Shown piece after piece: positions 2,098 through 20,954 of a stretch of DNA of 64,000 nt. Origin of the DNA: Crateriforma spongiae (lineage in GTDB: Bacteria; Planctomycetota; Planctomycetia; Pirellulales; Pirellulaceae); NCBI RefSeq assembly GCF_012290005.1, contig NZ_JAAXMS010000005.1, positions 372,001 through 436,000 on the forward strand. Reading direction: 5' to 3'. Position numbers and translations under genes: made by a program. The notes beneath the pieces are model-generated. The model was not told where the DNA came from. It saw nothing but the letters and a program-made list of their open reading frames with translations, and did no database searches. How positions within the stretch are numbered: position 1 is the first letter of the stretch; every line of letters begins with the position of its first letter.

Positions 2098-3675
2098 ATG
2101 ATCCAATTCTTCTGCATTCTTGCTGCGATGACCGCGCTGGACGCGGCGGACCAGCGCCCTAACGTCATCGTGGTGATGGCGGACGACATCAGTGCTCGCG
2201 ACTTTCCGATCTACGGTTCGACCACATGCTATGGCCAGCCTGCTGTCACTCCGGTCATCGATCGCTTGGCAACCGAAGGCTGCTACATCAACACTGCTTG
2301 GTCATCGACCGTTTGCATGCCCACCCGTGCAATGGTGATGAGCGGTCGATACGCACATTTGACGAAATGGTGGGACAATGGCGAATTTGGGAAATCCAAA
2401 CGCGGTGGGATCTATCCGATCGCTGATAGCTCGCCGTTGACGATCGGGCAATTGGCCAAGAAAGCCGGTTACCGATCGATTTGGGTCGGCAAAACGCACG
2501 TCACGACCGGTTCAAGTTACACGCGATTCGGTTTTGATGAAGGAGTTTTCACGCCGGGTGAACCTGAGGTTCGCGGCACGAGCCCGTTCGATCACTTTCG
2601 AAACCTGAAGAACAAAGAATTCTGGAATTCAGATTCATTTCTGTGGTGGCCGGAGGTGCAAGTCGCGAATCACCCCGACCATCCCGGCACGTCGTTCACG
2701 TGGCAGGAAACCGCAATCAGCGATTACGGACCTGACATTGAAATGGATCACATCCTGGAATTCATGGAGCGATCCAAACAGCAGGGCAAACCGTTTTTCG
2801 TCTACCACACCTCACACTTGGGCCATCAGGCCGTCGATATGGCCAGCCCACGACACAACATGACTTGGCCCGGGACACCCCGATTGACCTGGAACGCCGA
2901 TACGAGAACGTATACGCGTCACCGACCGAAGATCACGGCCAATGGCCCGACTGACAAGCTAAGTACGACCTATGAAAAAGAGAACATCACACCGGACGAG
3001 CTGAAGTTTCAGATCGAATATCTGGATTTCCAATTGTGGCAGTACCTTGAGAAGCTCAAGCAGATTGGCGAGTTGGAAAACACCGTCGTCATTTTTACTT
3101 CAGACAACGGTACCAAAGGCTGGAAGGCCTCGGTCGAAAAGCAACGTAGTCTGCACGTCCCTCTCATCATTTACGCTCCCGGACAGCCGCAGTTCGTTCA
3201 AGGCAAGCAGGACATTCTTTCCGATCTGTCCGACCTGCTGCCAACACTGGCCGAAATCATGGGGGCGGACTTGCCGTCATTCGATGAATATGAGTTGAAC
3301 GGCACCAGCCTGTGGCCGTATCTGACGAAACAAACACCCGATCATCGCGATTGGATCTACGCCTACAAGGGAAACCGCCAGATGGTCCGCGGCCACCTCT
3401 TGCTACGCGATGGAAAAGGCGACTGGTGGGACTGCAGTGACCTTCCACACGACCTGGATTCCTTTCCGCCCATCGAAAACCTCGACGCTCTCTCACCACC
3501 GCAGCAAGCGGAAAAAGCGATGATCGATGAGGTCTTGAAACGATTTGCCCGCACCGACGTCGGCGGTCCGCATTCGTTTCACGAAGATCCATCACGACGA
3601 TTGACTGGCCGCGAAAAACAGAAGATGCGTCTGAAACAAGAAAAGTTGGAAAAGCATCTCATGAAATTTGAGTAG
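2098..3675 (+). CDS. Sulfatase (S1 family, formylglycine-dependent), exported
   Basis: This 525-residue protein hydrolyses sulfate esters, probably on a polysaccharide. After a short hydrophobic leader (residues 1-17) it has the sulfatase start R-P-N-V-I-V-V-M-A-D-D (metal ligands D29-D30). The active-site motif C73-M-P-T-R77 is the C-x-P-x-R signature in which Cys is converted to formylglycine. The second metal-site motif, FTSDNGTKGW, lies near residue 340. Length is normal for the family. The C-terminus is basic and helical (REKQKMRLKQEKLEKHLMK). The ATG at 2098 lacks a strong Shine-Dalgarno. It is the first gene of the rightward cluster, 116 bp before a glycoside hydrolase, which suggests it removes sulfate so that the hydrolases can act. 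The exact substrate cannot be read from the sequence. Confidence 0.93.
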   Translation: MIQFFCILAAMTALDAADQRPNVIVVMADDISARDFPIYGSTTCYGQPAVTPVIDRLATEGCYINTAWSSTVCMPTRAMVMSGRYAHLTKWWDNGEFGKSKRGGIYPIADSSPLTIGQLAKKAGYRSIWVGKTHVTTGSSYTRFGFDEGVFTPGEPEVRGTSPFDHFRNLKNKEFWNSDSFLWWPEVQVANHPDHPGTSFTWQETAISDYGPDIEMDHILEFMERSKQQGKPFFVYHTSHLGHQAVDMASPRHNMTWPGTPRLTWNADTRTYTRHRPKITANGPTDKLSTTYEKENITPDELKFQIEYLDFQLWQYLEKLKQIGELENTVVIFTSDNGTKGWKASVEKQRSLHVPLIIYAPGQPQFVQGKQDILSDLSDLLPTLAEIMGADLPSFDEYELNGTSLWPYLTKQTPDHRDWIYAYKGNRQMVRGHLLLRDGKGDWWDCSDLPHDLDSFPPIENLDALSPPQQAEKAMIDEVLKRFARTDVGGPHSFHEDPSRRLTGREKQKMRLKQEKLEKHLMKFE

Positions 3676-3791
3676 CGGGACCACTCATTCGTTCATGCAT
3701 CCGTTTGTCGTTGGTCCGAAGCTGGCACCACCGGAAAAATTCTGGGCCCCATGCCGACGCAATCCCGATCGATCTACCCTCGTGTTTATCA

Positions 3792-5288
3792 ATGCAACGA
3801 AATCACTTTGTTAACAGTCTTGTGGTTCTGGCCTCGTTCACCCAGTTCATTTACGGAGTTTACGCAGACCAAGTCGACCCCGCGACGATTCAGCTCTCGA
3901 TCAATCCCAATCGCCAACACGCGTTGTCGCAGGATCTCTACGGCGCGAATAACGAGTGCATCTTTCGTCCCGTTTGGTTCGACCATCCCGCCTATGCCGC
4001 TCGATACAACGAAGCGGGCAAACCGTTTTTTCGGTTCCCAGGCGGGACCGGATCAAATTTCTATAACCCGTCCACGGGCTATTTTGACGACGATTCCCCG
4101 TCCACGCGTGATTACTCCGGCCACAATGCGCGAATTCACAAGTTCACCGATGGTGCGGGCCGCGTTCCCGATCAGTACCTGAAGTGGGTGAAACAGAACG
4201 ACGTGGCATACAGTCTTGTATTGAATGTGTGCACCCAAACGTTTGAACAGAACCGAGCTTGGATCGAAAGTCTTGGACGCGAAGGCCACCAAGTCGCTCG
4301 AATCGAAATCGGAAACGAAGTCTTCTACGACAGTTACAACTGGGCGTTCCCATCTGCGACTCAGTACGTGCAGCGCGCTCAAAGAATCACCGCCGTGATT
4401 CGCAAAGAACTGCCGGATACAGAAATCGGAGTTCTGGTTCCAACTCACTTGTACCAGGATCTTGATTTTCTGACGGAAAAGCGATCTGCCAGAGCCGATC
4501 ACCCCTACGGCTGGATCAAAGAACTAAAGGGAAAAGAGTTTTTTGACGCCGTTGTTATGCATATGTATTCGCTGACCGAAATGAGCGGTCAAACAGAACC
4601 GGAGGATTTTATTCCCTATCTGGAAGGTTACCATCAGTGCGACGAATACCTGACGCTGCGATTTAATAAGACGCTGGCACATCTGAATCGGCTGTTTCCG
4701 AAAAAGAAACTTTGGATGACCGAATATGGCGTCGGAGGTTTCGGCGGCACACTCAAGCAGTACAAGCTGCGTGACTCGCATCTGGGAGCACTTCATGCTG
4801 ACGTCATGCTGATGCGGTTCATCAACCATCCGTCGGTGACGGTCGCACATTGGCACTCGTTCCAGCACTTCTTTGATTTTACAGGTGGCATACAGGGGAT
4901 CGGTGAGCACCCACACCTGCCCTATACGCATTTTAGCTTGTTCAAGGATGCGATTCGCCAATCCGATTCCGTCCACGCCGTAACTGTTGACGGGGCAGAA
5001 GATGACGTCGATGCCACGGTGATGATGAAAGATTCCGCCGGATACTTGATCATCGCCAATCGCCTTGACAACGCCTACAAGATTGAGCAGCCCGTCGTCA
5101 TGGCCGGCAACAATGCCGTGCGATTGAAAGACGTTTTGCAGTTGAGCCATGTCGATGGCCAACCACTGGCAGTATCCGCACAGAACCTTGAGCGTTGTGA
5201 ATCCACTACTTGGATCGCACCGCCAAATCAGTCCATCGTGTTGCCACCCTATTCAATCACTCGAATCAAGTTTGATTCCGGCCAATAG
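3792..5288 (+). CDS. Clan GH-A glycoside hydrolase, exported
   Basis: The frame is open from 3705, but the ATG at 3792 gives MQRNHFVNSLVVLASFTQF, a proper signal peptide, so this start is preferred (498 residues). The fold markers are those of (beta/alpha)8 clan GH-A retaining glycosidases. There is an early FRFPGGTGSNFYNP segment. The Asn-Glu pair in IEIGNEVF supplies the probable acid/base (E205 counted from 3705). The Glu in LWMTEYGVGGFGG is the probable nucleophile (E340 counted from 3705). FRxPGG and NE resemble GH51/GH39/GH79-type arabinofuranosidases and relatives, but I cannot fix the family. C-terminal residues 420-527 look like the beta-sandwich seen in such enzymes. It sits between a sulfatase and two agarase-like proteins in the same direction, fitting polysaccharide breakdown outside the cytoplasm. 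Confidence 0.8.
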   Translation: MQRNHFVNSLVVLASFTQFIYGVYADQVDPATIQLSINPNRQHALSQDLYGANNECIFRPVWFDHPAYAARYNEAGKPFFRFPGGTGSNFYNPSTGYFDDDSPSTRDYSGHNARIHKFTDGAGRVPDQYLKWVKQNDVAYSLVLNVCTQTFEQNRAWIESLGREGHQVARIEIGNEVFYDSYNWAFPSATQYVQRAQRITAVIRKELPDTEIGVLVPTHLYQDLDFLTEKRSARADHPYGWIKELKGKEFFDAVVMHMYSLTEMSGQTEPEDFIPYLEGYHQCDEYLTLRFNKTLAHLNRLFPKKKLWMTEYGVGGFGGTLKQYKLRDSHLGALHADVMLMRFINHPSVTVAHWHSFQHFFDFTGGIQGIGEHPHLPYTHFSLFKDAIRQSDSVHAVTVDGAEDDVDATVMMKDSAGYLIIANRLDNAYKIEQPVVMAGNNAVRLKDVLQLSHVDGQPLAVSAQNLERCESTTWIAPPNQSIVLPPYSITRIKFDSGQ

Positions 5289-5368
5289 TGGCGGTCCGTG
5301 TTTGGCTCGCAACACACCGCTGATTGTCTCTCCCTTTCGACCACGACGACCTCTGCCGAGGAATTCCA

Positions 5369-6811
5369 ATGCCCCGAGTTTTGTTGTTATTGATAGCTGT
5401 GGCGTTTGCGAATCATGCCGCTGCCACGGAACCTGTCACGAGCGGGCTGGACCAGTACGGCGGCACGACTGCCATCAAAGGGAAGGCCACAGGATTCTTT
5501 CATATCGAACAGATTGACGGACGCAATTGGTTCATCACCCCTGATGGCAACGGGTTTTTTGCGGTCGCACTCAGCCACATGCTATCCGGGGAAAGCGATC
5601 TCGCCTGCCGGAATATCTACGATGGCGACGCTGATGCTTGGCTGAAAGGTTCGTTTGCAAAGGCGCGCGAGATGGGATTCAACTGTGCTTTGGGAAGTGC
5701 GACCAGCCCGGAACGGAATTTGAACGGGTTCGTCGACGTCGAGAAAGCAGAGACGCTTTTCCGGGAAGCCAACTTTCCCTTTTCCGTGGGTGTGATCTTG
5801 TTGAAGCACCCCTGGGAGTTTGTTGACGGCGAAACGCTTCCGGACATCTTTGATCCAGACTACGAGCAACTGATTCGCTCTCGCGCAGCACAAGTGTGTA
5901 CACGTTACAAAGACGATCCATTGTGCATGGGGTATTACTACGGTTTCGGGGCGTTTAACAAATCCGACGAATGGGTCAATCATCACTTCTCGCTGCCGCC
6001 GGGAAGCCCTGGCCGCGAGGTGCTTTGCGATCTGTTGATCCAGCGATACCAGGGCGATGCCGAGAAGTTCAACGAGGTCTACGGCACGTCACTGAAAGAC
6101 ATGGCGGAGCTGAAGTCGACTTATTGTCTGACGTACGATAAACAGTACGAACGCCGCAATTTCCCGATTGTCGGCAAGTCCTTGGATGAACGAAAGCTGG
6201 CGGATTTTGAAGCAATCGTCTCTCACATGTGCGTTTCACTATACAAACTGGGGCACTCTGCGATTCGGCGATTCGATACCAATCACTTGATCCTTGGCTC
6301 GTTCATCAAAGAATGGGCTTTGTCGATGGATTCTTGGAAAAGGGCCGCACCGTACGTGGACATGATCGCCCCGCAACACGTCAACGAGTTCATTTCGGTC
6401 AACGAAATTGGCAAAGCGACCGGTTTGCCGATCATCTTTTCCGATGAGTATTTTGGCTTCCACTATCCAGGTGGAAAGGGCAGTTTGCACGCCGGATTGG
6501 TGTCACACGATGCACGTGCCGAAGTGTATGCCGCGAACCTGATGCGGCACTTCAAAGATCCGCAGGTCTTGGGCGTGACCTATTGTGCTTGCATGTACGA
6601 CCAGGGCGGAAACACGTTGGCCAAGAACAATCAGAACGGATTTTACTCACTCCGTGGCGAGCCCAGACAGACGTTGATTGAGACCGTCACGAAGATGAAT
6701 CATTCAGTCTACGAGCACGTCAGGAACCCCGCCTCGCCGGATGAACTGAATCAACTTCATGAATTCTTGTTCGACAAGTGGAAGGAACACAGTGTCAGAA
6801 AGGGGCGGTAG
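5369..6811 (+). CDS. Agarase-like (GH50-like) glycoside hydrolase, exported
   Basis: The ATG at 5369 is chosen because GAGG lies 7 bp upstream and the product begins with a clean signal peptide (MPRVLLLLIAVAFANHAAA), giving 480 residues. The first domain starts GFFHIEQIDGRNWFITPDGN (about residues 42-61), the segment with which agarase/GH50-like clan GH-A proteins open. A later TNHLILGSF strand (about 304-312) and FSDEYFGF (E360, candidate nucleophile) complete the barrel. The usual acid/base Asn-Glu after the GYY strand is not obvious: the equivalent stretch reads MGYYYGFGAFNKSDEW (about 187-202). The next gene is a paralogue. Function is inferred as cleavage of a galactan or other sulfated glycan; substrate and family number are not certain. 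Confidence 0.72.
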   Translation: MPRVLLLLIAVAFANHAAATEPVTSGLDQYGGTTAIKGKATGFFHIEQIDGRNWFITPDGNGFFAVALSHMLSGESDLACRNIYDGDADAWLKGSFAKAREMGFNCALGSATSPERNLNGFVDVEKAETLFREANFPFSVGVILLKHPWEFVDGETLPDIFDPDYEQLIRSRAAQVCTRYKDDPLCMGYYYGFGAFNKSDEWVNHHFSLPPGSPGREVLCDLLIQRYQGDAEKFNEVYGTSLKDMAELKSTYCLTYDKQYERRNFPIVGKSLDERKLADFEAIVSHMCVSLYKLGHSAIRRFDTNHLILGSFIKEWALSMDSWKRAAPYVDMIAPQHVNEFISVNEIGKATGLPIIFSDEYFGFHYPGGKGSLHAGLVSHDARAEVYAANLMRHFKDPQVLGVTYCACMYDQGGNTLAKNNQNGFYSLRGEPRQTLIETVTKMNHSVYEHVRNPASPDELNQLHEFLFDKWKEHSVRKGR

Positions 6812-6909
6812 TGAAGCGTTGGTCCGTGACTGACCGTCCCATCTTTGGGATCGAGAAAGCAACGTATTGCTTTGACCCCCATCCGCCAGGCCATTTGGGA
6901 ATCAAATTC

Positions 6910-8295
6910 ATGAAGAACGTTCTGCCCTTTTTGCTTGCCACTTTTCTGTGCGTTCCGTGTTTCGCTCAGCGAGCAACGGGCTACATCCATGTTGAACAGA
7001 TCGATGGTGTTTGGTGGTTTGTGAACGCCGAGGGGGAGAAGTTTGTCAGTATCGGCGTCAATCACATTGAACCGCACCTGTGGCTGGCTCCCTATAACAA
7101 GTCAGCCACCCTGAGAAAGTATGGGGCCGATATGGTCGATGCCGATGGCCATTTCAACACCCATGGTGACGCGGCCAAAAAGTGGATCAACGCTCAGGTC
7201 GAAGTGTCGCAAAGTCTTGGCTTCAATACCTTTGGTAAACATACGCATCCGGCCATCGATCCTCGGCTGTACCAACAGCAGATTTACTACATCGCGTCGC
7301 TCGATACGGCCCCGCTGGCCGGTTGGCAACAACGTCTCGGACGTGGCCCGCGACCTGATGTGTTCTCGGCCGACTTCCGCGCGTTCGTCGAAAGACGCGT
7401 CGAGCAGGTCACCACGCTCCATCAGGACCAACGCAACTTGATCGGCTATCTGTACACCGACGTGCCCAGTTGGGTCATGGGGCGTGCCGAGCAGGCGGAA
7501 AAGAACGATACGACCATGATCTATCCGTGGATCAATGCGATCCTTCCGCTCGGCGAATCGTCGCCGGGGAAACGAAAGTGGCTGGAACACCTGGCTTCCC
7601 GTTACCCGGACGCAGAAGCGGCTGCGAAAGCATGGGGGATGCCGATCAGTCCCACGTACGGGATCTCATGGGACGAACTGGCTCGTCAGGTGGACTGGAC
7701 CCATCCGAACGATGTGGCATCCGCCAAGAAGGATATGGCGTCATTCATGCCGATCATCGCCAAGCAGTGGTACGCCATGCACGAAGAGATCATTCGCAGG
7801 CACGACCCGAATCATCTGATTCTTGGCGACAAAAACATGGTGATGTGGCACCACGACTTTGTTTTGCCGGCGATCAGAGAGCACGTCGACGTCGTCTGTG
7901 TGCAAGCTTATGGGCCTTGGGAAAGGGACAAACAGCTGACGGACATGATTTACCAGGCTACGGGAAAGCCAATCTTCAACGGCGACGGTTGTTTCGGCTA
8001 CGCGGGTTCGAACCAGCAACTGTGGGGTGTGAAAGGTTTCCGCACGGGGGCGACATCTGTGGAAGAAGTTGCCTCGCTCTACGAAGACATGCTGCGTGGC
8101 ATGATGTCCACCCCGTACTACGTCGGCTGGCATCACTGTGGCTATCTGGAACAGTGGGATGCCGCCGAACGCGGCGACTCTCCACGCAATGAAAATGGTT
8201 TCCTCGACCCCTTTGAACAGCCGCACAAACAATGGACGGAGGTTCTTCAGCAGGTCAACCATCAAGCGGCAAAATTGCACGAGTCGGCGCGATAG
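6910..8295 (+). CDS. Agarase-like (GH50-like) paralogue with altered catalytic positions, exported
   Basis: The frame is open from 6778, inside the previous gene, but the ATG at 6910 starts a signal peptide (MKNVLPFLLATFLCVPCFAQ), giving 461 residues. It is a paralogue of the preceding protein: GYIHVEQIDGVWWFVNAEGE matches that gene's opening domain, and NHLILGDKN and GKPIFNGDGCFGY match its later strands. At the position of the neighbour's candidate nucleophile E360 this protein has G360 (D-G instead of D-E). The strand that normally carries the acid/base Asn-Glu reads GYLYTDVPSW. So it may be a non-catalytic binder or use other residues. It is spaced 98 bp behind its paralogue and is probably in the same transcript. 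Confidence 0.7.
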   Translation: MKNVLPFLLATFLCVPCFAQRATGYIHVEQIDGVWWFVNAEGEKFVSIGVNHIEPHLWLAPYNKSATLRKYGADMVDADGHFNTHGDAAKKWINAQVEVSQSLGFNTFGKHTHPAIDPRLYQQQIYYIASLDTAPLAGWQQRLGRGPRPDVFSADFRAFVERRVEQVTTLHQDQRNLIGYLYTDVPSWVMGRAEQAEKNDTTMIYPWINAILPLGESSPGKRKWLEHLASRYPDAEAAAKAWGMPISPTYGISWDELARQVDWTHPNDVASAKKDMASFMPIIAKQWYAMHEEIIRRHDPNHLILGDKNMVMWHHDFVLPAIREHVDVVCVQAYGPWERDKQLTDMIYQATGKPIFNGDGCFGYAGSNQQLWGVKGFRTGATSVEEVASLYEDMLRGMMSTPYYVGWHHCGYLEQWDAAERGDSPRNENGFLDPFEQPHKQWTEVLQQVNHQAAKLHESAR

Positions 8296-8965: not shown

Positions 8966-10042
8966 GTGAGCGTGCTGCTCACACTGCTAGCCATTGCAAT
9001 GGTCCAAACTTTGGATGGGTCTCAGTGCCATGGGAACGAAGCTCAGCCAACCCAGTTTTATCTCGTTGGACTGGGCCCGGGTGACGCAGATTTGATGACG
9101 TTGCGCGCCGTCGACACCATCAAAAAATCCGACCTGATCCTTTGTCGAAAGCATCACGCTGAAATGCTCCGTGAGTCTCTAAAAGGCAAAGAAGTTCATA
9201 GTGAGTTTTCCGACATGATACCGTTTTTCAGTCGAGATCCGTTTCTGTATGAAGGAGAAGATCGTCAACGGGCAGAAGCCTACCAAGCCAAACGGGTGAA
9301 GCTTGTCCGCTTGGTGCGGGATGCCGTTGCGGCGGGAAAAACTGTCGCAGTGCTCGATAGCGGGGAGCCCATGATCTATGGCCCACGCACATGGATGCTC
9401 AAAGAGTTTGAAGACTTGAAGCCGCAAGTGATCCCTGGCCTGAGTTCGTTCAATGCCGCCAACGCTGCGATTGGTGCCGGGATCACGTCCGGTGGGCGTA
9501 CCAAGAGTGTCACTTTGACCGCCGGTGACTGGATCAAGACCGACGACACGATCGAAAAACTATCCGTTCATCGCAACACGATGGTGCTGTTTACGATGCG
9601 TGCGGAGTTTAGGGATTTTGTCGAAAGGCTTGCGATCAACTACGCACCGGACACGCCCTTGGCCGTTGTCGAGCAAGCGGGGGTACAGAACGAACAAAAC
9701 GTCATCTACAGCACCGTCGGTGATGCGCTTCGTGAGATTGACGCTGATGACTTGCCGTTCGAGTATCTAATCTATGTTGGCGATTTCCTAAAAAATCGTT
9801 TGCGCAAATGGTGCCCATGGTGCCTTTCCATAATGGCGATTAACGTCGTGCCGGTCGCCGGCTTGAAGGCCGCAGAAACCAACGACGCCAGTTTGTTGGG
9901 GAGGGCTTCCCGGGGGCAGGCCTCACATTTCTGCTGTTTGTCACGGCATTCTGAATCATTTTGTGTAAGAATTTGCACGAGTCGCCTGGCGATGGAGACA
10001 CCTCAGGCGGCCGGCTTGAATGAAGCGATCACATGGTTTTGA
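8966..10042 (+). CDS. Tetrapyrrole (corrin/porphyrin) methylase-family protein with a hydrophobic leader
   Basis: Residues 31-270 carry the SAM-dependent tetrapyrrole methylase fold: the opening FYLVGLGPGDADLMTLRAVD is the glycine-rich strand/loop of CobA/CbiF-type enzymes, followed by AGKTVAVLDSGEPMIYG (equivalent to the sGDPmiYg segment) and a VIPGLSSFNAANAAIG helix. Known members methylate uroporphyrinogen III or cobalamin precursors in the cytosol. Here the domain follows a hydrophobic leader (SVLLTLLAIAMVQ), implying export or membrane attachment. The GTG at 8966 is the first start after an in-frame TGA at 8918. The codons just upstream read R-K-K-S-R, an ideal signal-peptide n-region, but have no start codon. 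The last 80 residues are Cys-rich, unlike the family, and follow an A6 run at 9790-9795; a slip there would end the protein at 9843. It lies inside a glycan-degradation cluster. Confidence 0.68.
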   Translation: MSVLLTLLAIAMVQTLDGSQCHGNEAQPTQFYLVGLGPGDADLMTLRAVDTIKKSDLILCRKHHAEMLRESLKGKEVHSEFSDMIPFFSRDPFLYEGEDRQRAEAYQAKRVKLVRLVRDAVAAGKTVAVLDSGEPMIYGPRTWMLKEFEDLKPQVIPGLSSFNAANAAIGAGITSGGRTKSVTLTAGDWIKTDDTIEKLSVHRNTMVLFTMRAEFRDFVERLAINYAPDTPLAVVEQAGVQNEQNVIYSTVGDALREIDADDLPFEYLIYVGDFLKNRLRKWCPWCLSIMAINVVPVAGLKAAETNDASLLGRASRGQASHFCCLSRHSESFCVRICTSRLAMETPQAAGLNEAITWF

Positions 10043-10114
10043 GACTCGCCGTTGTCGTCCGACGTTCAGAGCGCATCCACCCGTTTTTCAGGATATCCCG
10101 AATCAGGTTTGCAC

Positions 10115-11653
10115 ATGCCTTTCCACCGACCGTCCAACATCGAATTCATACAGTTGCTGGTCGTCATGCTGTCTGTACCGTTCTCTGCGCCTTTCGCGGC
10201 AGCGAACGACATTGCCACACCGCCGAACATTGTGTTCATTATGGCGGACGATCTGGGGTATGCAGACGTCGGGTTTAACGGTTGCAGATGGTTTGAAACT
10301 CCCGCCCTGGATGCACTGTCGAAGGACAGTCTGGTTTTTGAATACGCGTACATGTATCCGACGTGTTCTCCGTCGCGAACAGCACTGTTCACTGGCAGAC
10401 AGTCATTCCGCACAGGTGTCTACACCGTTCCCGTTCTGGAGAAGGGCACGGCCGACGAAAATATCTTCTCCCGTTGGACGGTCACTCATGACCATCCGGT
10501 TTACGCCGAGCCTCTTGCGAAGGCGGGGTACAAGTCCATCCATCTTGGCAAATGGCACATCGTTGGCCCGTACCCCAGGCGAGAACTGGCCATGAAGTTT
10601 CCGCTGGACCGCAAACTGACGCAGCCCAATCCAGGTGACTTCAGTTGGGTCGAGGATCACAAACAGCCTGCGATCAAGAAGTTCTATCCAGAAGGCCGCG
10701 GCTTTCTGAAGAACGTCGGCGGCACGTTTCGTGGTGATCCGGCATTTGAGGAGGGCGGATACAAGAGCGAGGCCGGCGGCTATTGGGCACCGTTCAGTAA
10801 TCCGTTTATCGAACATCGGAAGGACGATCGCTGGCTGACCGATCGGCTGACTGATGACGCCATCGCGTTCATGAAGCGACACCAGGATGGACCGTTCTTC
10901 GTCAATCTGCACTTCTACGCAGTTCACCGTCCCATCCGAATCCGCAGCGAAGCGCTGTTCGCCAAGTACATGAATAAGGACGGTGATCCAAACACCGGCC
11001 AGGGACTTAGAAAGAAGCGCGAAGCGATGGCGAAGTATGCCACGGTGGTCGAGTCGATGGATCAAAACGTGGGGCGGCTGGTCCAGTTTCTCGATGACGC
11101 CGGGATTCGCGACAACACGATGATCGTTTTTACGTCCGACAATGGCCAGCATCCGATGTACAGCACCAACAACCAATTGCGAGGCGCCAAGGGTGAGATT
11201 TACGAAGGCGGCATTCGAGTTCCCACTCTGGTCAGTCACCCGGGGAAAGTGCGGCCGGGGCGAACGGACACTCCGATCTGTGGGCTTGATTGGTTTCCCA
11301 CGTTCTTGGACGTCGCCCACGTCACGAACCACGAAGGAACACTCGACGGAAATTCGCTCGCACCCTTGCTGCAGGGAACGGACGACTCACTCGCCGATCG
11401 GCCATTGTTTTGGCACATCGCGAGCCAATACAAACATGGCACATGTTCAGTCATTCGCAAAAATGACCACAAGCTGATTCAGTTTCTCAAGGACGGGCGT
11501 CTGGAACTTTACAACCTGAAAGAAGATCCCGCAGAGCAAAACAATCTTGCGGAATCGAATAGGGAACTGGCTGAGTCGATGCGAATGGAACTGTCACAGT
11601 GGCGTAAAGCCAACAAGGTTCCGCTTCCGCCTGAATCCACGCTGCCGTATTGA
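10115..11653 (+). CDS. Sulfatase (S1 family, formylglycine-dependent), exported
   Basis: The frame is open from a TTG at 10052. The ATG at 10115 is preferred because it gives a basic n-region followed by a hydrophobic stretch (FIQLLVVMLSVPFSAPFAAA), and it yields 512 residues. P-P-N-I-V-F-I-M-A-D-D-L-G supplies the N-terminal metal ligands. C84-S-P-S-R88 is the formylglycine signature. The LGKWH motif (around residue 152) and VFTSDNGQH contribute further active-site and metal residues. The C-terminal ELYNLKEDPAEQNNLAE segment is the usual small domain of polysaccharide sulfatases. It is the last gene of the rightward cluster. Its sequence differs clearly from the 2098 sulfatase, so the two probably act on different sulfate positions or linkages. 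Confidence 0.93.
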   Translation: MPFHRPSNIEFIQLLVVMLSVPFSAPFAAANDIATPPNIVFIMADDLGYADVGFNGCRWFETPALDALSKDSLVFEYAYMYPTCSPSRTALFTGRQSFRTGVYTVPVLEKGTADENIFSRWTVTHDHPVYAEPLAKAGYKSIHLGKWHIVGPYPRRELAMKFPLDRKLTQPNPGDFSWVEDHKQPAIKKFYPEGRGFLKNVGGTFRGDPAFEEGGYKSEAGGYWAPFSNPFIEHRKDDRWLTDRLTDDAIAFMKRHQDGPFFVNLHFYAVHRPIRIRSEALFAKYMNKDGDPNTGQGLRKKREAMAKYATVVESMDQNVGRLVQFLDDAGIRDNTMIVFTSDNGQHPMYSTNNQLRGAKGEIYEGGIRVPTLVSHPGKVRPGRTDTPICGLDWFPTFLDVAHVTNHEGTLDGNSLAPLLQGTDDSLADRPLFWHIASQYKHGTCSVIRKNDHKLIQFLKDGRLELYNLKEDPAEQNNLAESNRELAESMRMELSQWRKANKVPLPPESTLPY

Positions 11654-12065: not shown

Positions 12066-15000
12066 CTAACCATTGAAAAGATCCGAAACGTTTTCTGCCA
12101 GATCTCCGATCGACCCCCAAGAATGCTTGTGGCACAACTCGCCGTCCATCTGAAGGACAAATGTGGAGAGGTTCAGCGTTAGCTTAGTGAGCGTCGCTTT
12201 GCCTTGGTTTCCGAACGAAATCTTGTCTAAAAATGTGACAACTTTTTGACCGATTGGGGTATTAGTGAGGTCCAGTACGAATTCGTCTCCATCTGACTTC
12301 TTCAGTTCATTCTGAATGAATGTGACGTAAGGATCCGCCTCACCGGGAAGCATCTCGCGGATCGCTTCGTCCATCAGTTTGGTCATCACCTGAGCAAACG
12401 CTTGTTCGAAAGTTCCCGAACCAAAAATGACTCCGGCTAGCGCATCCAAGCCGTCGATGACCTCCTCCGATGCGCCTTCTTCTTCGAGCTGTTTCAAAAC
12501 GACATCGACCACGGCGCCTTCGATAGACGCTCCGCTGAAGATATCTTCACTATCTGGGTCGCCGGAGAAGTCAAAATCAAACTCGGCAACATCCGTATCA
12601 ATCGCTTCGCCCAATTCTTCGGGTTCGACGCCGTCGGGGATTTGCCAAATCAAGGCGAAACCAAGGTGAGGCGAATCCAGGTCCAATCCGTCACGACCGA
12701 CCAACTCCGCCAAGCTCCCCTTGCTGCCACCGGTGATGCCTTTGATCAACTCGCCAGTCAGCGGCTTCTCCTTAATTTCGTAGTTGTAATTGATCGGCAT
12801 CCAACGCAGCTCGATGTGCGGTGATTGGACGGGTTGCTGAAGGATCAAGGATTTCAAAAGCATCGGACCGAGAGCCTCGACTTGATCCTCCGCTTTGCGT
12901 TCGATCCAGGCGAGTAGATCGTTCATTTCCAATCGCATGTGTTCGCCGAAGTCGCGAATTGCGTCCTCGACTCCCTCGCCTCCGGTCAAGTAGATCTCGA
13001 CGGCAACCTCAGCCGCGGTTTCACCACCGAAATATTCAACGAATCTTCGTGTCGCAAAGAAGACATTCTGAGCACCGAATTCTTGATAGAGAGCGTTACG
13101 TGTCTGGTCGTACTCGTCGGTAACCACCAGATCGGCCCCAAACACGCCTTTGATGAATTCAACAGGCTGCAGATCGGGAATCGACGCGTCGTCTTCGAGT
13201 GCGTCATTAAGTTTGCGAGAATCGTAACCGAGCCCCGGCCCAAGCTGAGCGTCAAGATACAGCGATCCGTTGCTTAGATTAAGCGATGTTTTAAAACCAG
13301 TTTCGATCTTGTAAGCAATGATTTCCTGGTCCAACGCGTCATCGCGTTTCTCACGTATCTTCTTTCCAGCATCCTTTACCCAATTGGAAACCTTACCACC
13401 GGCGTCTTTTGAAGCGTCGGAGAACTTACCACCAGTCTCTTTGGCTTTGGCGACGAAGGGCTTTGTCTTTTCTTCAACGACATCCAAGACTCCATTGGCG
13501 GTCTGGCCAGCGTCTTTGGCGTCTTGCTGGATCTGTTTGACGGTCCCATAAGGATTACGCTCCTTCACCGAATCGATGCGATCTTCAATGACAGCCCCCG
13601 CCTGGCCGGGATCTTGGATTAAAGTTTCCACGGCCGCAATATCGCTAGCAATGTCGTTGAAGACCGGGATGAGATTCTCCTTGACCTTCGGATCGAAACC
13701 CGCCGGTTTCGGCAGTGCATTCACTTTGTCGATGGCCGTCTGTGTGATTGCTTTTTTCTTTTCGTCGATATAGGTATCAACCCAAGTCTTGACCCTGATC
13801 GCGGCCTGTTCGGCTTGCTCGATTTTTCTGTCAAGGGGCTCTTTTGCTTTGGTCACCAAATCATCGACGTAATCGTCAGCCGTTTGCAATTGCTCCTTTG
13901 CTTCCTGTAGCTTTTCATTCCAATAACCATGCCACTCTGTAAAGCGTTCTTCGATGATGTCGAACTGGCGATCCTTCCAGTCGGTGTAGCTTTGGTACGC
14001 TTCCTCTAAACCAGAAACCTTAGCGAGTGGCCGCAACAACTGCTCGCTGACCCAATTATCAAGCTCTCGAATATCATTGTTAAATTCTTTGAGGATCTTC
14101 GCTTCCTGTTTGCTCCGCCAATCGTCCCACCAAGCGACCTTCTCTTCAAACTGTTCGATTCGGTCGCTTAGGAATTTTTTGCGAAGCTCAAGTCGGCGAG
14201 GACGCCAAACCTCGTCAAGATAGACTTTGTGAGCTTTCAGTGGATCGGTTACATTCTTCTCTTCTCTATCTGCATCCTCCTTCATTTCGGTGCGGTCGAT
14301 TTCCGCCGCAGCAAGTTTCGCTTTCTCCTCCTGCGCAATCCTATCCTTTTCCTCATCGATGCGGTCTTGGGCTTCGGCCTGTTTGACAAGGGTCGAAAGG
14401 TAAAGTTCCATCTGAATGCGCACCTTGTCGCCCGAGTCCAGTATCTGGTCGGCCAAGTCAGCGGTGGGTGCTTCTGCAGCGATCGTTTCCAGGGCGTCGA
14501 GATATTGCCAACCGACCACACCAATAAAGTCAAGTGCCCCGCCGGCGAACAGGTCTCGGCCAACCTGTTGAGTGACAATATGTGGCTGGATGTACCGTGG
14601 GCCGTTGGCGTTGTTGACAACCGTTAGCTTTAGCTCGACGGCATCGCTCATCGGCGTGGCATTTCTTGGCGTATCAAAGATGGCATAAAGCACCTCGTTA
14701 TTTCCTGGCGTTAGTTCAATCGAAGTGGACTCGCGCACTTCTCGCGTATCGGCGAGAACCCTTCCGAGCCGATCAACGATATGGAGGGATGTTTCGGAAT
14801 TTCGCAAACCGTCGATGCGAATGGGCACACCTGCGTTAACGTGAAATTGGCGAATCTCCGATTGTCCCGCATTCGGTAGATTGATCGTGGCTGGCTCGCC
14901 GTAGGGAAGGTGGCTCGCTGCGGATAGCGGGCGAATCGCAAACTCGAAATCAATAGGTCGCCCGAATTCGCTAAGCTCTAACGTATATGTTCCCGGTGCC

Positions 15001-18000
15001 ATCAAGCGAATGGGTAGGTCATTGTCTCCCAACCAGTTAAAGTCAGTAACGATCCCATCAGAAAAACTCACCCCTGACTCGTAAAACAGTCTGTATCCGA
15101 ATGATTCTTCGGTAGCTTTGTCGAAATATATCAGTGATGGTTCGTCAATCGTAAATTGATATCGCTGCACATCCGATTCCAATTCGATCCGCCCTTGAAC
15201 GAACTGATTCAGTGGCAATTCTTGGGCGTCCTGATCGATGATTCCTGGCGTCCAATGCACAGAATCGCCACCGAAGTTGTGGATTCGGACATAGAAGTAT
15301 CCGTCACTGCTTGCCGTGACGGCTTCATCAACATAACTGCCGTCCTCATCGTCGTCGAAGCGGAAGCCATCCGAACGATACAAATCGGAACTGGTGCCAG
15401 CACCGTCGATGACAAAACGATCTCCCTGCTGAAGACGAATTTTATAAAGCTTCTCTGGTGAGTCTGCGTCGTCAAATTCAGTCAAAACAGGCACGCCAAG
15501 AGACACCTCGAAGGCTGTCGCGATGTCGCGTATCTCAAGTGTCGGCAGAAGTGAGGCGTCGGTGTTATCGGTAGAAACCTCGATAACGTTCCTTCCCGCT
15601 GGGAGCCACACGAACTCATCCGACTTCACGCTCCCGCGTTGATTTCCGAAACTATCAATTAGTTGCGACGAGATGCTATTATGAAAGTCGGAACTGATAG
15701 CAAAAATGACCTGCTTCGGCTCTGTAAGTTCCAGCACGTAGCGAAGAGGCGATGACAACGGTGCCAGTTCGATATTCGTCGGCGTATTCAAAGACAGAGT
15801 GCGGTCACCGACGATCGGATCGACCGCACCAAGTTCGTTCAATTCAATGGTTACGCGACTGAATTGAATCGTGTCCTCCCCAGAGGTCCCATCCATCCAT
15901 ACCCAATGGCCTTGATTGCTTCGAGCGATAAATTCTCCGTCTCCTTCATGGATGATGTCACCATGTGGATCACGGATCTGCAGTGATACGGTATCGCCCT
16001 CTTCATCGAAATGCGTCACCGAATAGCGGTAGTCGCTCTTCGGAGTGAACTGAAACGCCTGTAGTTCGTTGCTGCGTTGCAGAGTAATGCGTTCCGGTTG
16101 GCCAACGACCACAGACGGTGCGTTTGCCAAGTCAGTTACGCGAAATGAGAGCCGGCCTTCATTGTTATATTCTCGGTACGCTATTATCTGATAGTCGCCT
16201 GGCTGGCTCAAGTATTTGGCGTGGTTGTCAAGCAGATACCAGGCTTGGCCTTCGAATATGATTCCATCAGGCCCGACCAAGCGTAGATAATTGTCGACGG
16301 GTTCGACGTTGTCGAGCAAATCGACGACGATCCGTTGCCCGTCAGCCACGGTAAAGTCAAAGTGACGACTTGCGGTTTGGCGATCCAGTGGAACATCGAC
16401 TATTTCGCCAATTGAGATGGCGACAGGATCGTGACGAACGGCCGCATGAAGCTGAACATTGAAGTAGACGTTGTCGCGAGTCGGTTCGGGTTTGGGTTCG
16501 CTGCGAATGCGTAACAAGTATTCGGCACCTGGCTCAAGTGTATGTATAGCATTCGGATGACTGAAGTCCGCTGCAAAGTTGCCGTAAGCGTCAAAGAGAT
16601 GGATTTCTTCGACAGCGTCCTCTTCGCTGTCAGGCAAGATTTCGCCACGGACCAAACCGTCATCGGGAGCGACAAAGCGATAGATCCGGGACTGAGTGTC
16701 ATCGGGTAGAAAACCCTGGATCGGACGATCAAGTTCAATCGTGGGAACCTGCGAAGCTTCAATGACCTGAATCCCGTAGTCACCCGATTGATTGCTGTCG
16801 GCGATGACGGTGATCGTGTACTCACCGGCAGGCAAATAGGCCGATTGCATGTAAAGATCGTACTCCGAAATCTCGACTTCCCGAATCGCACGGCCATTGT
16901 GATCGCGAATTTCAACTCGAAGGTCGTCATGAATCGATTCGGCAATACCCATCGGCTCGAAAATAACCAATCCCGGTTCGGCCAGGCGAAGGTCATGGAC
17001 TTGTCCCTGACCATCAGCGTCAGTCGAACCTTTCCATTCGTGTACGCCAAGCAAGTTCGTCAATTTGGGAACCGGTGTTTTGACGAACGGCAGGGTGATT
17101 TGTTCTTGTTGTCCTGCGGCCGTTACCTGTGCGATCAGACGCAGTTGCGTTGTACCTCGATTCCAAAAAGGGTCATTCTCGGTCGGTAGCGACAACTGAA
17201 TGCCGAGTTCGGCTGCTTCACCGGGTTGCAATGCTTCGCCAAAATCGACCGTCCCCAGCAACCGACTGGCAAGCGAGATATCATCTTCGTGGCTGAGGAA
17301 GAACGCGGTCGTGAACGGTTCGCTTTGTAGATCACCTTCATTGCTGACCGACACTTTAATGTCGATGGCTCCGCCAGCCTCCAGCGCCAAACCCGACTCA
17401 ATTTCAAAATCGTCAATCTTCAGACCGGGTTGCAATTGTAGCGTCGCACCATTGCCAACGGCTGTTCGGACCGAATCACGTTGACGCCATCCAACAGTTT
17501 GCACTTCGGTTTCGCCAACGAACTTGACGGAACGAGTGTCGTAGCTCAGATCGTTGCTTTGCGACAACTCAACCGGTGTCCCCATCACCCGCCCCAGCGG
17601 ATCGATGACGACTAAACTTCGTACGGACCCAGCAACGGTCCATCCGGCTTCGTTAATGTCCATATGAGCCACATCATCGATGACGGCATCAAGCGGTCTG
17701 ACAAATACCGAAGCGTCATCATCAACTTTGCCCATCGCCAAGTAGGTTCGCTCTTCATGATACCAAGCAACTCGATAGTCGCCGGCTTCATTGATACCAA
17801 TGCTGTGCCAAGCATTCGGCCCGGGATAACCCGATGGAAAGTCAAGATGAACGGCTGTCCCCAGACTCTCTCCGGTATCGGAGATGCTCTGCACCCGAAC
17901 ACCTTCGCTAGGCACAAACGCATGTCGCCAAGCGATCACACCTTTTCCGGAATTGTTGAGGGCAAGGGTCGCCACCAGAGCATCGGTGTCGCTAATGACA

Positions 18001-20954
18001 AGTCGTGTCGGATGTTCATCCAACGGGGTATTATCCGGACCGATACGCAATAGGTAGAGACTGTTAGCTTCCTCGCCGCCCGGCGGGTTCTCGTGTGATC
18101 CGTCAAACGCCATCAAGATGAGCACGTTACCGTCAGCATCGGCCGCCGCGTGAACTCGCGAGGGTCTGTAATCACCAAGATGAACACGTTCTCCCACCGT
18201 CTTCCCTTGACCACTCGCGTCGACCTGGGAGATTCGACTCAGGTACAGACCACTGTCGAATTCAACCTCAACCACCGCTGCCTGATCACCATAATAAGCA
18301 TAATTCTCGGCATCAAACGGAAGCGACAGATCAGTCGTGGAGCCAAGTGACGTCTCTTGATCGGCCGATTTCAATAGTTGAGTCTGAAGTTTGGCGGTGG
18401 CGATGACTGGAACGGTGACGCCGACGGCATCGCCATACAAGATCGCGTTGTCAGCGAAATAGACAGGTCGTGCAAAGAACGTCGCTTCCGAGTCGCCCGG
18501 AACGGCGTGGGGCACGCCTGAGAACGAACCAAAGGTCAATGAGTTTTTCGTAGAGCGGCCAAGCGAGTAATCGACCGACTCATCAAAAACTCCGTCCCCG
18601 TTTGCGTCTTGAAAGAAATCGATTTGTTCGACGACAACGCTGGGATGGCTCGCACCGACTGACCGCAAGCGAATCGGATCCGCACCGCTATCTGAAATCG
18701 CTGGGACATTGATCTCGATGCGTTCGAGCGTCGGTTTGACTTGGATAACCTCGACTGTGAAATCAATGCGTGATGTGAGGGTATATGTGTCCTCGCCGGG
18801 GAGCGGATACTCATTATCTCCGGGATCAGGTGGATCTGCAGGTGAGGCGGCAACCACCGCGAATTGGTGTTGACCCGAGTCGGATTCGGTCGTTCGCCAT
18901 TCGAACCATCCTGTCTGGGGATTTACCTTCAGAGTAGGGTATTCTGATATGCTTCTCCCCTGAAAAGCCGGCGCTTGATCTCCCGGAAACAGATCGTCTG
19001 GGAAATGATAAAGGGGAATTTTATCTCCGATCGGATGGATCGCACGAAATGGAATGCGTAACGTATCGCCCTGAACCACTTGAATGGGCTGATCAAAGTC
19101 GGTTTGATGCACCCAGATTGGCGGTAACTTTCTAAGGTTGCTGTCCGCTTGATCACTGGCGAAATCGTTCTTGGATGCATCCCAGTACTGCTCGAACTCG
19201 CTTCGCAGTCGCGCTAGTTCTCGCTGGACCCACTCAAACTTAGCTCGGTCATGGAACGCCTCACGAAGCGTCTCTTTTTCCCAGTTGTAAGCCGATTCAA
19301 TTTCGTCGTTGGTTTGTTTGTAAGACTGTCGCAACTGGCCGATGGTATCGATCAGATCAGCCTGGGTTGCTTCATCGAACGACGAAAGATGCGCCGTCAT
19401 TGTGTCGATCAAGCCTGGGATTTGATCATGGCGCAGATCAGACGCCATCTGCTTCCATCGCTGAACAAGAGCCAATCGCCCGTCATCGGGAGCGCGGTCG
19501 TCCACGATGTCAATTGCAATTCTGGCCAGCGAATCGTCAGACTCATCAAATGCGCTCAGGTAAACAAAGATTTCTCCATGAAGTGGCTCGTCCAAAACGA
19601 CCTCGACTTGGTCGCTCTCGACATTGACTGTTACTGGAGCGGGAATTTCCGCCTCGGCATACGCGAGAAGGTATGGGTTCTCATAAATTGTCTCGTCCAA
19701 CCTTGCCACCTGCGAGCGAATTTCACCAGTGGTCTTGTAGTCATCACGCCATTGCACCAAGTCCCCGTTGGGCATGACAAAAAATGCGTTCCCGGAATCG
19801 CTAAAGAGCCATTTCTCGTCCAGTCCGATCATGTTGAAATAATCAGAACCGGCGTAGTTTAGTCGGTACTCATCGTCGATCGCTTTGAGCGGATTGGCCA
19901 TCGTGGCAAAGCCCAAAAGCTCGACAGAGTCGCCCTCAACGTCGAACGCTTCGAACGGAAGAACAATGGTCTCGTCAAGAATTGATGCGGAAATAACCGA
20001 TTCGATTTCAATCTGCGGTGCGTCGTTCACCGGGGCCAAGTTCAGCGTCAACTCTTTGCGACCACTGGACTGTTCGCCATCATGCACCTCGTAGGCAATG
20101 ATCTCCGTTCCGAAGAAATTGGGTGCCGGTGTATAGAAGTACTCACCTTGGATGAAGTCTAATGAACCATGGACCGGATCTTCCAATACCGTGACAATCA
20201 AATCATCCGGATCGTTATCTCCGTCGTACACAAGGTCCAAAAAGTTGATTGCCACCTGCTCATCTTCGGCCGACTGTCGAACATGAACGGTCGTCACCGG
20301 GGGGGCAGGAAGCACTTCGAGGTCCATGTCCCGAACGCCCGGAGCCATTGCCTGATCGACCCCGAAGAAAATTTGGAAAGCACCTCGGTTTAGAGCATCG
20401 CCGAGAATTTCTCTTATTTGTCGATCTGTCAGGTGAAAGTACCCTGTTTCGTCTATGTGAATCGATACGTCAAACCACTGCATCTCGGCGGGACCTTGCA
20501 CGCCGAGATACAGCGATCTTTCGGTCGCGAAGTTGAGCCGTCCCTCGAAACCGAGGTCGAACGTGCGTTGGTCTCGATCCGTATCACCGTCCGTTTGAGT
20601 GTCATTGAGCAAGCGAAACGTGGCTTGCGGAACAGGAGCGTTTAAAGCATTGATGACCAACAAAGCATCCAATGCAGAAGCCTTTTGATCACCGGAGACA
20701 TCGAGGTATCGGTCGCTGGTACCCGCTCCACTGCCGTTAGAACTCGACTCTGAATTGAGATGATTGATGATTTGCAATGCATCGAGAGCGGAGATCTTAA
20801 GGTCATTGCTTACATCCAACGGATTGCCAGGGTTTTGAATCTCAGCGGCTAACAGTTGCCTTTGCTCAAGAGATTCAACGCGAAGTGTCCTGTCGCGTCT
20901 CCTTCGATCGTCGCAATTGACAAGCGTTTGAGATGATCTTCGTTTTGTTCTCAT
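12066..20954 (-). CDS. Giant (2962 aa) LEPR-XLL/dockerin surface protein with PPC-like repeats and coiled coil
   Basis: The N-terminus is basic and carries the planctomycete motif VESLEQRQLLAAE (residues 26-38), which marks exported giant proteins. Two dockerin-type calcium repeats follow (about 46-67 and 83-105; LDVSNDLKISALDAL and LDVSGDQKASALDAL). Next come a cadherin-like/tandem-95-type domain (about 215-320, ending LAPVNDAPQ), a CARDB-like domain (about 1178-1300, GLKIDDFEIESG) and a run of PPC-like beta domains (about 1310-2150) with recurring (L)-x-(A/P)-G-x-Y-x-(I/L) turns such as LPAGEYTITV and LSQPGDYQII. Residues 2170-2540 are rich in Glu/Lys/Ala heptads and should form long coiled coils, unusual in this class. 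The C-terminal 400 residues are unrecognised. It probably works at the cell surface in adhesion or matrix assembly. Its ATG overlaps the TGA of the upstream frame in ATGA. Confidence 0.82.
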   Translation of the reverse strand: MRTKRRSSQTLVNCDDRRRRDRTLRVESLEQRQLLAAEIQNPGNPLDVSNDLKISALDALQIINHLNSESSSNGSGAGTSDRYLDVSGDQKASALDALLVINALNAPVPQATFRLLNDTQTDGDTDRDQRTFDLGFEGRLNFATERSLYLGVQGPAEMQWFDVSIHIDETGYFHLTDRQIREILGDALNRGAFQIFFGVDQAMAPGVRDMDLEVLPAPPVTTVHVRQSAEDEQVAINFLDLVYDGDNDPDDLIVTVLEDPVHGSLDFIQGEYFYTPAPNFFGTEIIAYEVHDGEQSSGRKELTLNLAPVNDAPQIEIESVISASILDETIVLPFEAFDVEGDSVELLGFATMANPLKAIDDEYRLNYAGSDYFNMIGLDEKWLFSDSGNAFFVMPNGDLVQWRDDYKTTGEIRSQVARLDETIYENPYLLAYAEAEIPAPVTVNVESDQVEVVLDEPLHGEIFVYLSAFDESDDSLARIAIDIVDDRAPDDGRLALVQRWKQMASDLRHDQIPGLIDTMTAHLSSFDEATQADLIDTIGQLRQSYKQTNDEIESAYNWEKETLREAFHDRAKFEWVQRELARLRSEFEQYWDASKNDFASDQADSNLRKLPPIWVHQTDFDQPIQVVQGDTLRIPFRAIHPIGDKIPLYHFPDDLFPGDQAPAFQGRSISEYPTLKVNPQTGWFEWRTTESDSGQHQFAVVAASPADPPDPGDNEYPLPGEDTYTLTSRIDFTVEVIQVKPTLERIEINVPAISDSGADPIRLRSVGASHPSVVVEQIDFFQDANGDGVFDESVDYSLGRSTKNSLTFGSFSGVPHAVPGDSEATFFARPVYFADNAILYGDAVGVTVPVIATAKLQTQLLKSADQETSLGSTTDLSLPFDAENYAYYGDQAAVVEVEFDSGLYLSRISQVDASGQGKTVGERVHLGDYRPSRVHAAADADGNVLILMAFDGSHENPPGGEEANSLYLLRIGPDNTPLDEHPTRLVISDTDALVATLALNNSGKGVIAWRHAFVPSEGVRVQSISDTGESLGTAVHLDFPSGYPGPNAWHSIGINEAGDYRVAWYHEERTYLAMGKVDDDASVFVRPLDAVIDDVAHMDINEAGWTVAGSVRSLVVIDPLGRVMGTPVELSQSNDLSYDTRSVKFVGETEVQTVGWRQRDSVRTAVGNGATLQLQPGLKIDDFEIESGLALEAGGAIDIKVSVSNEGDLQSEPFTTAFFLSHEDDISLASRLLGTVDFGEALQPGEAAELGIQLSLPTENDPFWNRGTTQLRLIAQVTAAGQQEQITLPFVKTPVPKLTNLLGVHEWKGSTDADGQGQVHDLRLAEPGLVIFEPMGIAESIHDDLRVEIRDHNGRAIREVEISEYDLYMQSAYLPAGEYTITVIADSNQSGDYGIQVIEASQVPTIELDRPIQGFLPDDTQSRIYRFVAPDDGLVRGEILPDSEEDAVEEIHLFDAYGNFAADFSHPNAIHTLEPGAEYLLRIRSEPKPEPTRDNVYFNVQLHAAVRHDPVAISIGEIVDVPLDRQTASRHFDFTVADGQRIVVDLLDNVEPVDNYLRLVGPDGIIFEGQAWYLLDNHAKYLSQPGDYQIIAYREYNNEGRLSFRVTDLANAPSVVVGQPERITLQRSNELQAFQFTPKSDYRYSVTHFDEEGDTVSLQIRDPHGDIIHEGDGEFIARSNQGHWVWMDGTSGEDTIQFSRVTIELNELGAVDPIVGDRTLSLNTPTNIELAPLSSPLRYVLELTEPKQVIFAISSDFHNSISSQLIDSFGNQRGSVKSDEFVWLPAGRNVIEVSTDNTDASLLPTLEIRDIATAFEVSLGVPVLTEFDDADSPEKLYKIRLQQGDRFVIDGAGTSSDLYRSDGFRFDDDEDGSYVDEAVTASSDGYFYVRIHNFGGDSVHWTPGIIDQDAQELPLNQFVQGRIELESDVQRYQFTIDEPSLIYFDKATEESFGYRLFYESGVSFSDGIVTDFNWLGDNDLPIRLMAPGTYTLELSEFGRPIDFEFAIRPLSAASHLPYGEPATINLPNAGQSEIRQFHVNAGVPIRIDGLRNSETSLHIVDRLGRVLADTREVRESTSIELTPGNNEVLYAIFDTPRNATPMSDAVELKLTVVNNANGPRYIQPHIVTQQVGRDLFAGGALDFIGVVGWQYLDALETIAAEAPTADLADQILDSGDKVRIQMELYLSTLVKQAEAQDRIDEEKDRIAQEEKAKLAAAEIDRTEMKEDADREEKNVTDPLKAHKVYLDEVWRPRRLELRKKFLSDRIEQFEEKVAWWDDWRSKQEAKILKEFNNDIRELDNWVSEQLLRPLAKVSGLEEAYQSYTDWKDRQFDIIEERFTEWHGYWNEKLQEAKEQLQTADDYVDDLVTKAKEPLDRKIEQAEQAAIRVKTWVDTYIDEKKKAITQTAIDKVNALPKPAGFDPKVKENLIPVFNDIASDIAAVETLIQDPGQAGAVIEDRIDSVKERNPYGTVKQIQQDAKDAGQTANGVLDVVEEKTKPFVAKAKETGGKFSDASKDAGGKVSNWVKDAGKKIREKRDDALDQEIIAYKIETGFKTSLNLSNGSLYLDAQLGPGLGYDSRKLNDALEDDASIPDLQPVEFIKGVFGADLVVTDEYDQTRNALYQEFGAQNVFFATRRFVEYFGGETAAEVAVEIYLTGGEGVEDAIRDFGEHMRLEMNDLLAWIERKAEDQVEALGPMLLKSLILQQPVQSPHIELRWMPINYNYEIKEKPLTGELIKGITGGSKGSLAELVGRDGLDLDSPHLGFALIWQIPDGVEPEELGEAIDTDVAEFDFDFSGDPDSEDIFSGASIEGAVVDVVLKQLEEEGASEEVIDGLDALAGVIFGSGTFEQAFAQVMTKLMDEAIREMLPGEADPYVTFIQNELKKSDGDEFVLDLTNTPIGQKVVTFLDKISFGNQGKATLTKLTLNLSTFVLQMDGELCHKHSWGSIGDLAENVSDLFNG

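Follow-up and report, generated by a model that had tools for sequence, protein, structure and literature searches.

Proteins with the TP_methylase fold are usually treated as cytosolic enzymes that use S-adenosylmethionine (SAM) in corrin, siroheme, rRNA, diphthamide or borosin chemistry. The 64,000-nucleotide stretch of DNA analysed here, hereafter the window, encodes such a domain behind a hydrophobic leader, which raises the question of where this protein resides and what the fold does there. A search of the open-licence literature, with subscription papers outside its scope, returned nothing relevant on exported or periplasmic tetrapyrrole methylases. Homologues were collected from the window's order (396 genomes, and also G010) and from the phylum of an Acidobacteriota metagenome assembly (396 genomes). 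In the second phylum the family occurs in 7 of the 396 genomes, several of which have more than one member. The standalone set used throughout comprises 28 proteins; 21 of them belong to the window's order and 7 to the second phylum.

The gene encodes a complete TP_methylase domain

8966-10042, + strand: TP_methylase-fold open reading frame, 358 codons, GTG start
9056..9805, + strand: TP_methylase-fold domain, residues 31-280, delimited by the Pfam match, the AlphaFold model and the structural match to 3ndc
9824..10042, + strand: C-terminal read-through tail, unconserved, with the family stop displaced (homologue alignment and model)

The preliminary description had noted a CobA/CbiF-type fold behind a hydrophobic leader, and this was borne out: the domain is complete. 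Pfam PF00590 matches residues 31-253 with an E value of 8.5e-42 and 143.9 bits, against a gathering cut-off of 27.8. An AlphaFold model made from the family alignment is confident across the domain and predicts the two-domain CobM/CysG fold, with a Z score of 21.7 and an rmsd of 2.6 over 227 residues to 3ndc (VIA) and a Z score of 21.6 to 1cbf. The last ~75 codons (about 9824-10039) lie outside the domain; homologues stop about 4-30 residues past the 'YVGDFL' strand, and the tail is predicted to be disordered (pLDDT 25-47 in the model).

In NCBIfam, the CobM model TIGR01465 scores 101.5 with this protein, below its cut-off of 259.65, and no other listed equivalog reached its cut-off. The homologues at L032, L034 and L004 score 108-120 against the same cut-off. 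Apart from this protein, the window's genome (G000, 97.8% complete) contains just one PF00590 protein, and it sits in an open frame of 674 residues. With a single further TP_methylase in the genome, the protein is therefore not in a B12 pathway here, and we rejected a role in B12 synthesis in this genome because the other corrin methylases are missing.

A conserved leader most likely places the domain outside the cytoplasm

8966..9055, + strand: hydrophobic leader, codons 1-30 (MSVLLTLLAIAMVQTLDGSQCHGNEAQPTQ), a putative Sec-type signal peptide, judged from its homologues; it starts at GTG and its n-region lacks basic residues; aligned with the leaders of L084, L085 and L086

About 13 residues at the N-terminus of the window protein are strongly hydrophobic, with a best 10-residue Kyte-Doolittle mean of 2.87. 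Counted from the GTG, the leader contains no Lys or Arg, and upstream of it the open frame runs on as DSKGLFRKKSRTTVS with no ATG, GTG or TTG before a TGA; the exact start is therefore uncertain. The preliminary description had considered that homologues might begin directly at FYLVGLGPG with no leader. Instead, 28-48 residues of leader directly precede the first strand in 28/28 standalone members, the window protein included. The best 10-residue hydropathy of these leaders is 2.2-3.55; in 14 cytosolic paralogues the region preceding this motif does not rise above 1.85.

Export was assessed by proxies, namely hydropathy, charge polarity, pN/pS and simple motif patterns. In 27/28 members the net charge is higher on the N-terminal side of the hydrophobic stretch than on its C-terminal side, with Lys and Arg totals of 70 before and 28 after. 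By the positive-inside rule, basic residues before the stretch place the domain outside, whether or not the leader is cleaved. In close pairs of homologues the leader has a pN/pS of 0.33-0.49 (L112/L113, L079/L080, L054/L076) or 0.96 (L032/L109), with no frame loss, so that constraint on it is mostly mild, versus the strong constraint on the domain (0.07-0.24). We rejected the idea that the leader is untranslated DNA on the grounds of its conservation in 28/28, its pN/pS below 1 without frame loss and its charge polarity. An AxA motif occurs in 16/28 leaders by simple pattern. The same approach found no lipobox in any of the 28 members and a twin-Arg-like pattern in L089 and L090 only, and we rejected Tat or lipoprotein export as the general route. 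Together this suggests that the leader is a Sec-type export signal and that the protein would be periplasmic; the earlier proposal that the domain lies outside the cytoplasm is most likely correct.

The exported clade differs from cytosolic paralogues in its cleft

9068..9085, + strand: GLGPGD (residues 35-40), corresponding to the glycine-rich loop of TP_methylases that bind SAM (alignment; role from PMC6478909, PMC1282579)
9362..9370, + strand: G-E-P, residues 133-135, the GDP motif with Asp changed to Glu in the window copy only (alignment)
9527..9547, + strand: D188-W-x4-D194, a signature of the exported clade, at the position of the substrate-binding loop of SUMT enzymes (alignment)

In CobM and CbiF, SAH is contacted by the Pro of GPGD, the Asp of GDP, the Ser/Thr of PGxS, a Leu and an Ala; the Asp is Asp103 in CbiF and Asp83 in Rhodobacter capsulatus CobM (PMC6478909, PMC1282579). 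Most of these positions persist in the main exported clade: in an alignment of 27 members GxGPG, Pro38, Ser160 and Ala238 are each present in 27/27, and 26/27 have Asp134, the exception being the window protein with Glu.

The clade-specific changes are T210 and D188/D194, and the window protein has both the D188-x5-D194 pair and T210. Within the loop to which NirE binds its substrate, D188 is found in 27/28 and D194 in 28/28 standalone exported members and neither, as a rule, in 13 cytosolic paralogues. The column of the ribose-contact Leu of CobM/CbiF is Thr in 28/28 exported members and Met in 9/13 cytosolic paralogues. In NirE, Met186 is needed for SAM binding and activity, and its change to Leu cut activity by 84% (PMC4731766). 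Our own mapping of the Thr column to NirE Met186 is only suggestive, since CbiF has Leu there. The residue after GDPxxxG also differs: exported members have Pro in 27/28, cytosolic paralogues Arg in 9/13. In a sister exported subgroup (L115-L120) the GPGD loop and Ser160 are lost: the glycine loop reads GMGT[AS]-[KP]DL, PGVG replaces PGxS, and GDP and D-[WF]-x4-D are kept. The features common to all standalone exported proteins thus lie more in the cleft and its loop than in the SAM loop, which favours binding over methylation. Reuse of the domain outside the cytoplasm, as the preliminary description had offered, would account for the changed residues of the cleft and for the SAM-loop residues missing from the sister subgroup. 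A tree of exported and cytosolic proteins is compatible, weakly (39/69 support), with a single origin of the exported group.

A dedicated DUF1559 gene accompanies the family in the window's order

At 13 loci of the window's order a DUF1559 gene adjoins the family gene, upstream and on the same strand in 11. The encoded protein is of PulG/prepilin type with an H-X9-DG C-terminus. These partners form two orthologous sets, class I (69-83% identical; L087 50-53%) and class II (70-79%), versus 30-39% for other DUF1559 copies. The class I partner is present in 13/13 family-bearing genomes of one taxonomic family (f17), including 6 in which the two genes are far apart or on different contigs, and in 1 further draft genome of 381. 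At 70% identity or above, the class II partner is confined within the sample to the window's clade, where 4/5 genomes have it. Overall, 17/18 family-bearing genomes of the two main families have a dedicated partner, versus 1 in about 360 others. Fisher tests of co-occurrence gave p values of 3e-23 (class I) and 6e-9 (class II), both inflated by shared descent within families, and part of the co-occurrence may come from such descent within one family of genomes. Adjacency and co-occurrence are observed, and from them we infer a physical partnership of the exported protein with DUF1559.

A conserved cysteine-rich protein with no assigned family is also encoded upstream of the DUF1559/TP_methylase pair at three loci (L085:8896-9558, L086:8891-9541, L088:8934-9743).

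Other neighbours suggest metal or oxyanion handling

A DUF4198 gene follows the family gene in three loci, and at L091, in the window's order, a small Oxidored_molyb protein is encoded just upstream. Neighbours in the second phylum include a TupA-like binding protein with an FmdE-like protein (L032, L109, L110), a ModA-like protein (L120) and, judged by eye, a TonB-receptor-like protein (L032, L109). At L032:9683-11443 (- strand), L116:5586-7388 (- strand), L114 and L115, an Oxidored_molyb-like region and a TP_methylase domain are joined in one exported protein; one of these lies beside a TonB-receptor-like gene, and those at L032 and L116 are among the neighbours in the second phylum. In a plasmid collection the best matches were ordinary cobM/cobA, and the fused protein had none. 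The metal-type neighbours differ between the phyla and are absent at many loci (for example L054, L076, L079 and L080). Collectively, they are circumstantial evidence that metals or oxyanions are handled in the envelope.

As a separate observation, the FmdE-like proteins (L032:6767-7516, L109:6293-7021, L110:6421-7116) carry a leader as well as an N-terminal CxxCH motif, which would suit exported proteins that bear haem.

The sulfatase neighbourhood is incidental

2098-3675, + strand: sulfatase PF00884, judged incidental (Pfam, genome count)
10052-11653, + strand: sulfatase PF00884, judged incidental (Pfam, genome count)

The gene had been described as lying among secreted sulfatases and glycosidases. 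Two Pfam sulfatases do flank it; however, the three open reading frames between them (3705-5288, 5324-6811, 6778-8295) have no Pfam or NCBIfam match, leaving the glycosidases putative. The window's genome has at least 150 sulfatases, a density at which ~28% of 15-kb stretches would contain one by chance, and with such abundance a sulfatase near the gene is not a clue. Sulfatase-like sequence (E 1e-6) was found at 3/20 homologous loci of the order (L084, L090, L092), no more than chance, so the suggestion that this setting is informative is not supported. As the neighbour is not conserved, we rejected an association with sulfatases or glycosidases. Two of the unmatched frames, 5324-6811 and 6778-8295, are tandem, mutually similar and secreted-looking, at about 500 residues each. 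The window also contains two very large open reading frames, at 12066-20954 (- strand, 2962 codons) and 41673-60650 (+ strand, 6325 codons).

The window's own copy departs from its relatives

The window protein groups with those of L084, L085 and L086, to which it is 67-71% identical, with 100/99 tree support. Compared with these it starts at GTG, carries Glu in its GDP motif (D134E), extends ~75 unconserved codons further at its C-terminus and has no adjoining DUF1559 gene. No DUF1559 remnants were found in the window by tblastn, and among the best 5 of 71-76 candidates scored in its genome no partner matched at E 1e-95. The family had no match in G001, the one same-genus genome searched. The missing partner, D134E, the weak start and the displaced stop make the window copy a possible orphan, which may be decaying or newly repurposed.

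We considered whether this copy, independently of the rest of the family, is a pseudogene in decay or a cytosolic protein whose true start is an in-frame ATG near 8999 or later. The GTG start without a basic n-region, the unique D134E, the lost family stop with its disordered tail, the partner not found, the absence from G001 and a branch of 0.23, versus 0.14-0.15 in its sisters, would all fit. Against this, the domain is open over 250 codons with a confident predicted fold, and its pN/pS versus the three nearest relatives is 0.19-0.22, no higher than among those relatives; in addition, L086 likewise lacks Lys and Arg in its n-region, yet has a normal ATG and a partner. We consider pseudogenization or a shifted start fairly unlikely.

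Proposed function and alternatives

A leader in every examined member, across two phyla, means either that SAM chemistry takes place outside the cytoplasm or that the fold has been recycled as an envelope binding protein. We favour the latter at somewhat less than even odds (a probability of roughly 0.45): the exported TP_methylase-fold clade would consist of envelope ligand-binding proteins, acting in the window's order with DUF1559, with a metal chelate or metallated tetrapyrrole as the probable ligand and the window copy as a possible orphan. We hypothesize that the Sec-type leader carries the domain out of the cytoplasm, as its conservation in 28 homologues and its charge polarity suggest. 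Once outside, the two-domain cleft would most likely serve as a ligand pocket and not as a methylase active site, and in the window's order the protein would act with its dedicated pilin-like DUF1559 envelope protein. The nature of the ligand, suggested by the metal and oxyanion neighbours at other loci, is the weakest step. Counting against a binding protein, nearly every main-clade member retains Pro38, Asp134, Ser160 and Ala238, which fits binding of SAM or a SAM-like molecule. More speculatively, and we think with rather more doubt than promise, the protein could act without methylation, as a receptor in the periplasm or on the cell surface that captures a metal chelate or tetrapyrrole. 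It would work with DUF1559 in bacteria that look planctomycete-like from their gene content (DUF1559, many sulfatases), and with TupA, FmdE and Oxidored_molyb proteins in the Acidobacteriota phylum, in an undescribed nutrient-capture module.

The same retained residues would be expected of an exported but still SAM-dependent methyltransferase, using periplasmic SAM or exported with SAM bound, and methylating a tetrapyrrole, a pilin or a metallophore. The fold match to SAH-binding CobM (Z 21.7), the methylation of peptides by the same fold in OphMA and SonM, and a pilin-like partner that could serve as substrate all speak for such an enzyme. The sister exported subgroup, however, has dispensed with GPGD and Ser160, and the uniform Thr in the column mapped to NirE Met186 argues suggestively in the same direction. 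We know of no SAM supply outside the cytoplasm, and because the leaders look Sec-type, with twin-Arg-like patterns in L089 and L090 only, folded export with SAM is unlikely; we judge periplasmic methylation unlikely overall. SAM would be available if the leader were an uncleaved N-terminal anchor on a cytoplasmic domain, and the AxA motif in only 16/28 leaders would be consistent with an anchor. The charge polarity described above places the domain on the other side of the membrane, and the hydrophobic stretches, at 10-21 residues, are mostly short for anchors, making this arrangement quite improbable.

The clade would also offer an initial clue to what one member of DUF1559 does, in a pseudopilin-like family that is very abundant and functionally obscure. 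It cautions against automatic annotation of exported-clade genes as 'precorrin-4 methyltransferase'.

Comparison with known systems

CobM/CbiF (TIGR01465; 3ndc, 1cbf, 4e16) share the fold with the window protein over 220-230 residues (Z 21-22, 24-28% identity), together with the glycine-rich loop and the GDP and PGxS motifs. The window protein differs in falling below the TIGR01465 cut-off, in its export leader, in having Thr for the ribose-contact Leu, in its D188/D194 loop and in a genome with no corrin pathway. SUMT, CobA, CysG and NirE share the fold (Z about 18-19.5) and fall in the same Pfam family; unlike the exported clade they are cytosolic and leaderless, and cytosolic paralogues mostly carry Arg after GDPxxxG where the exported members have Pro. 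In the borosin peptide N-methyltransferases OphMA and SonM (Z about 15.5-16) the TP_methylase fold serves a role outside tetrapyrrole chemistry; they are cytosolic SAM enzymes acting on peptides, with no known export leader. Relocation of a tetrapyrrole-handling protein to the periplasm is seen in the cobaltochelatase CbiK(P) of Desulfovibrio, which differs in having a chelatase fold unrelated to PF00590.
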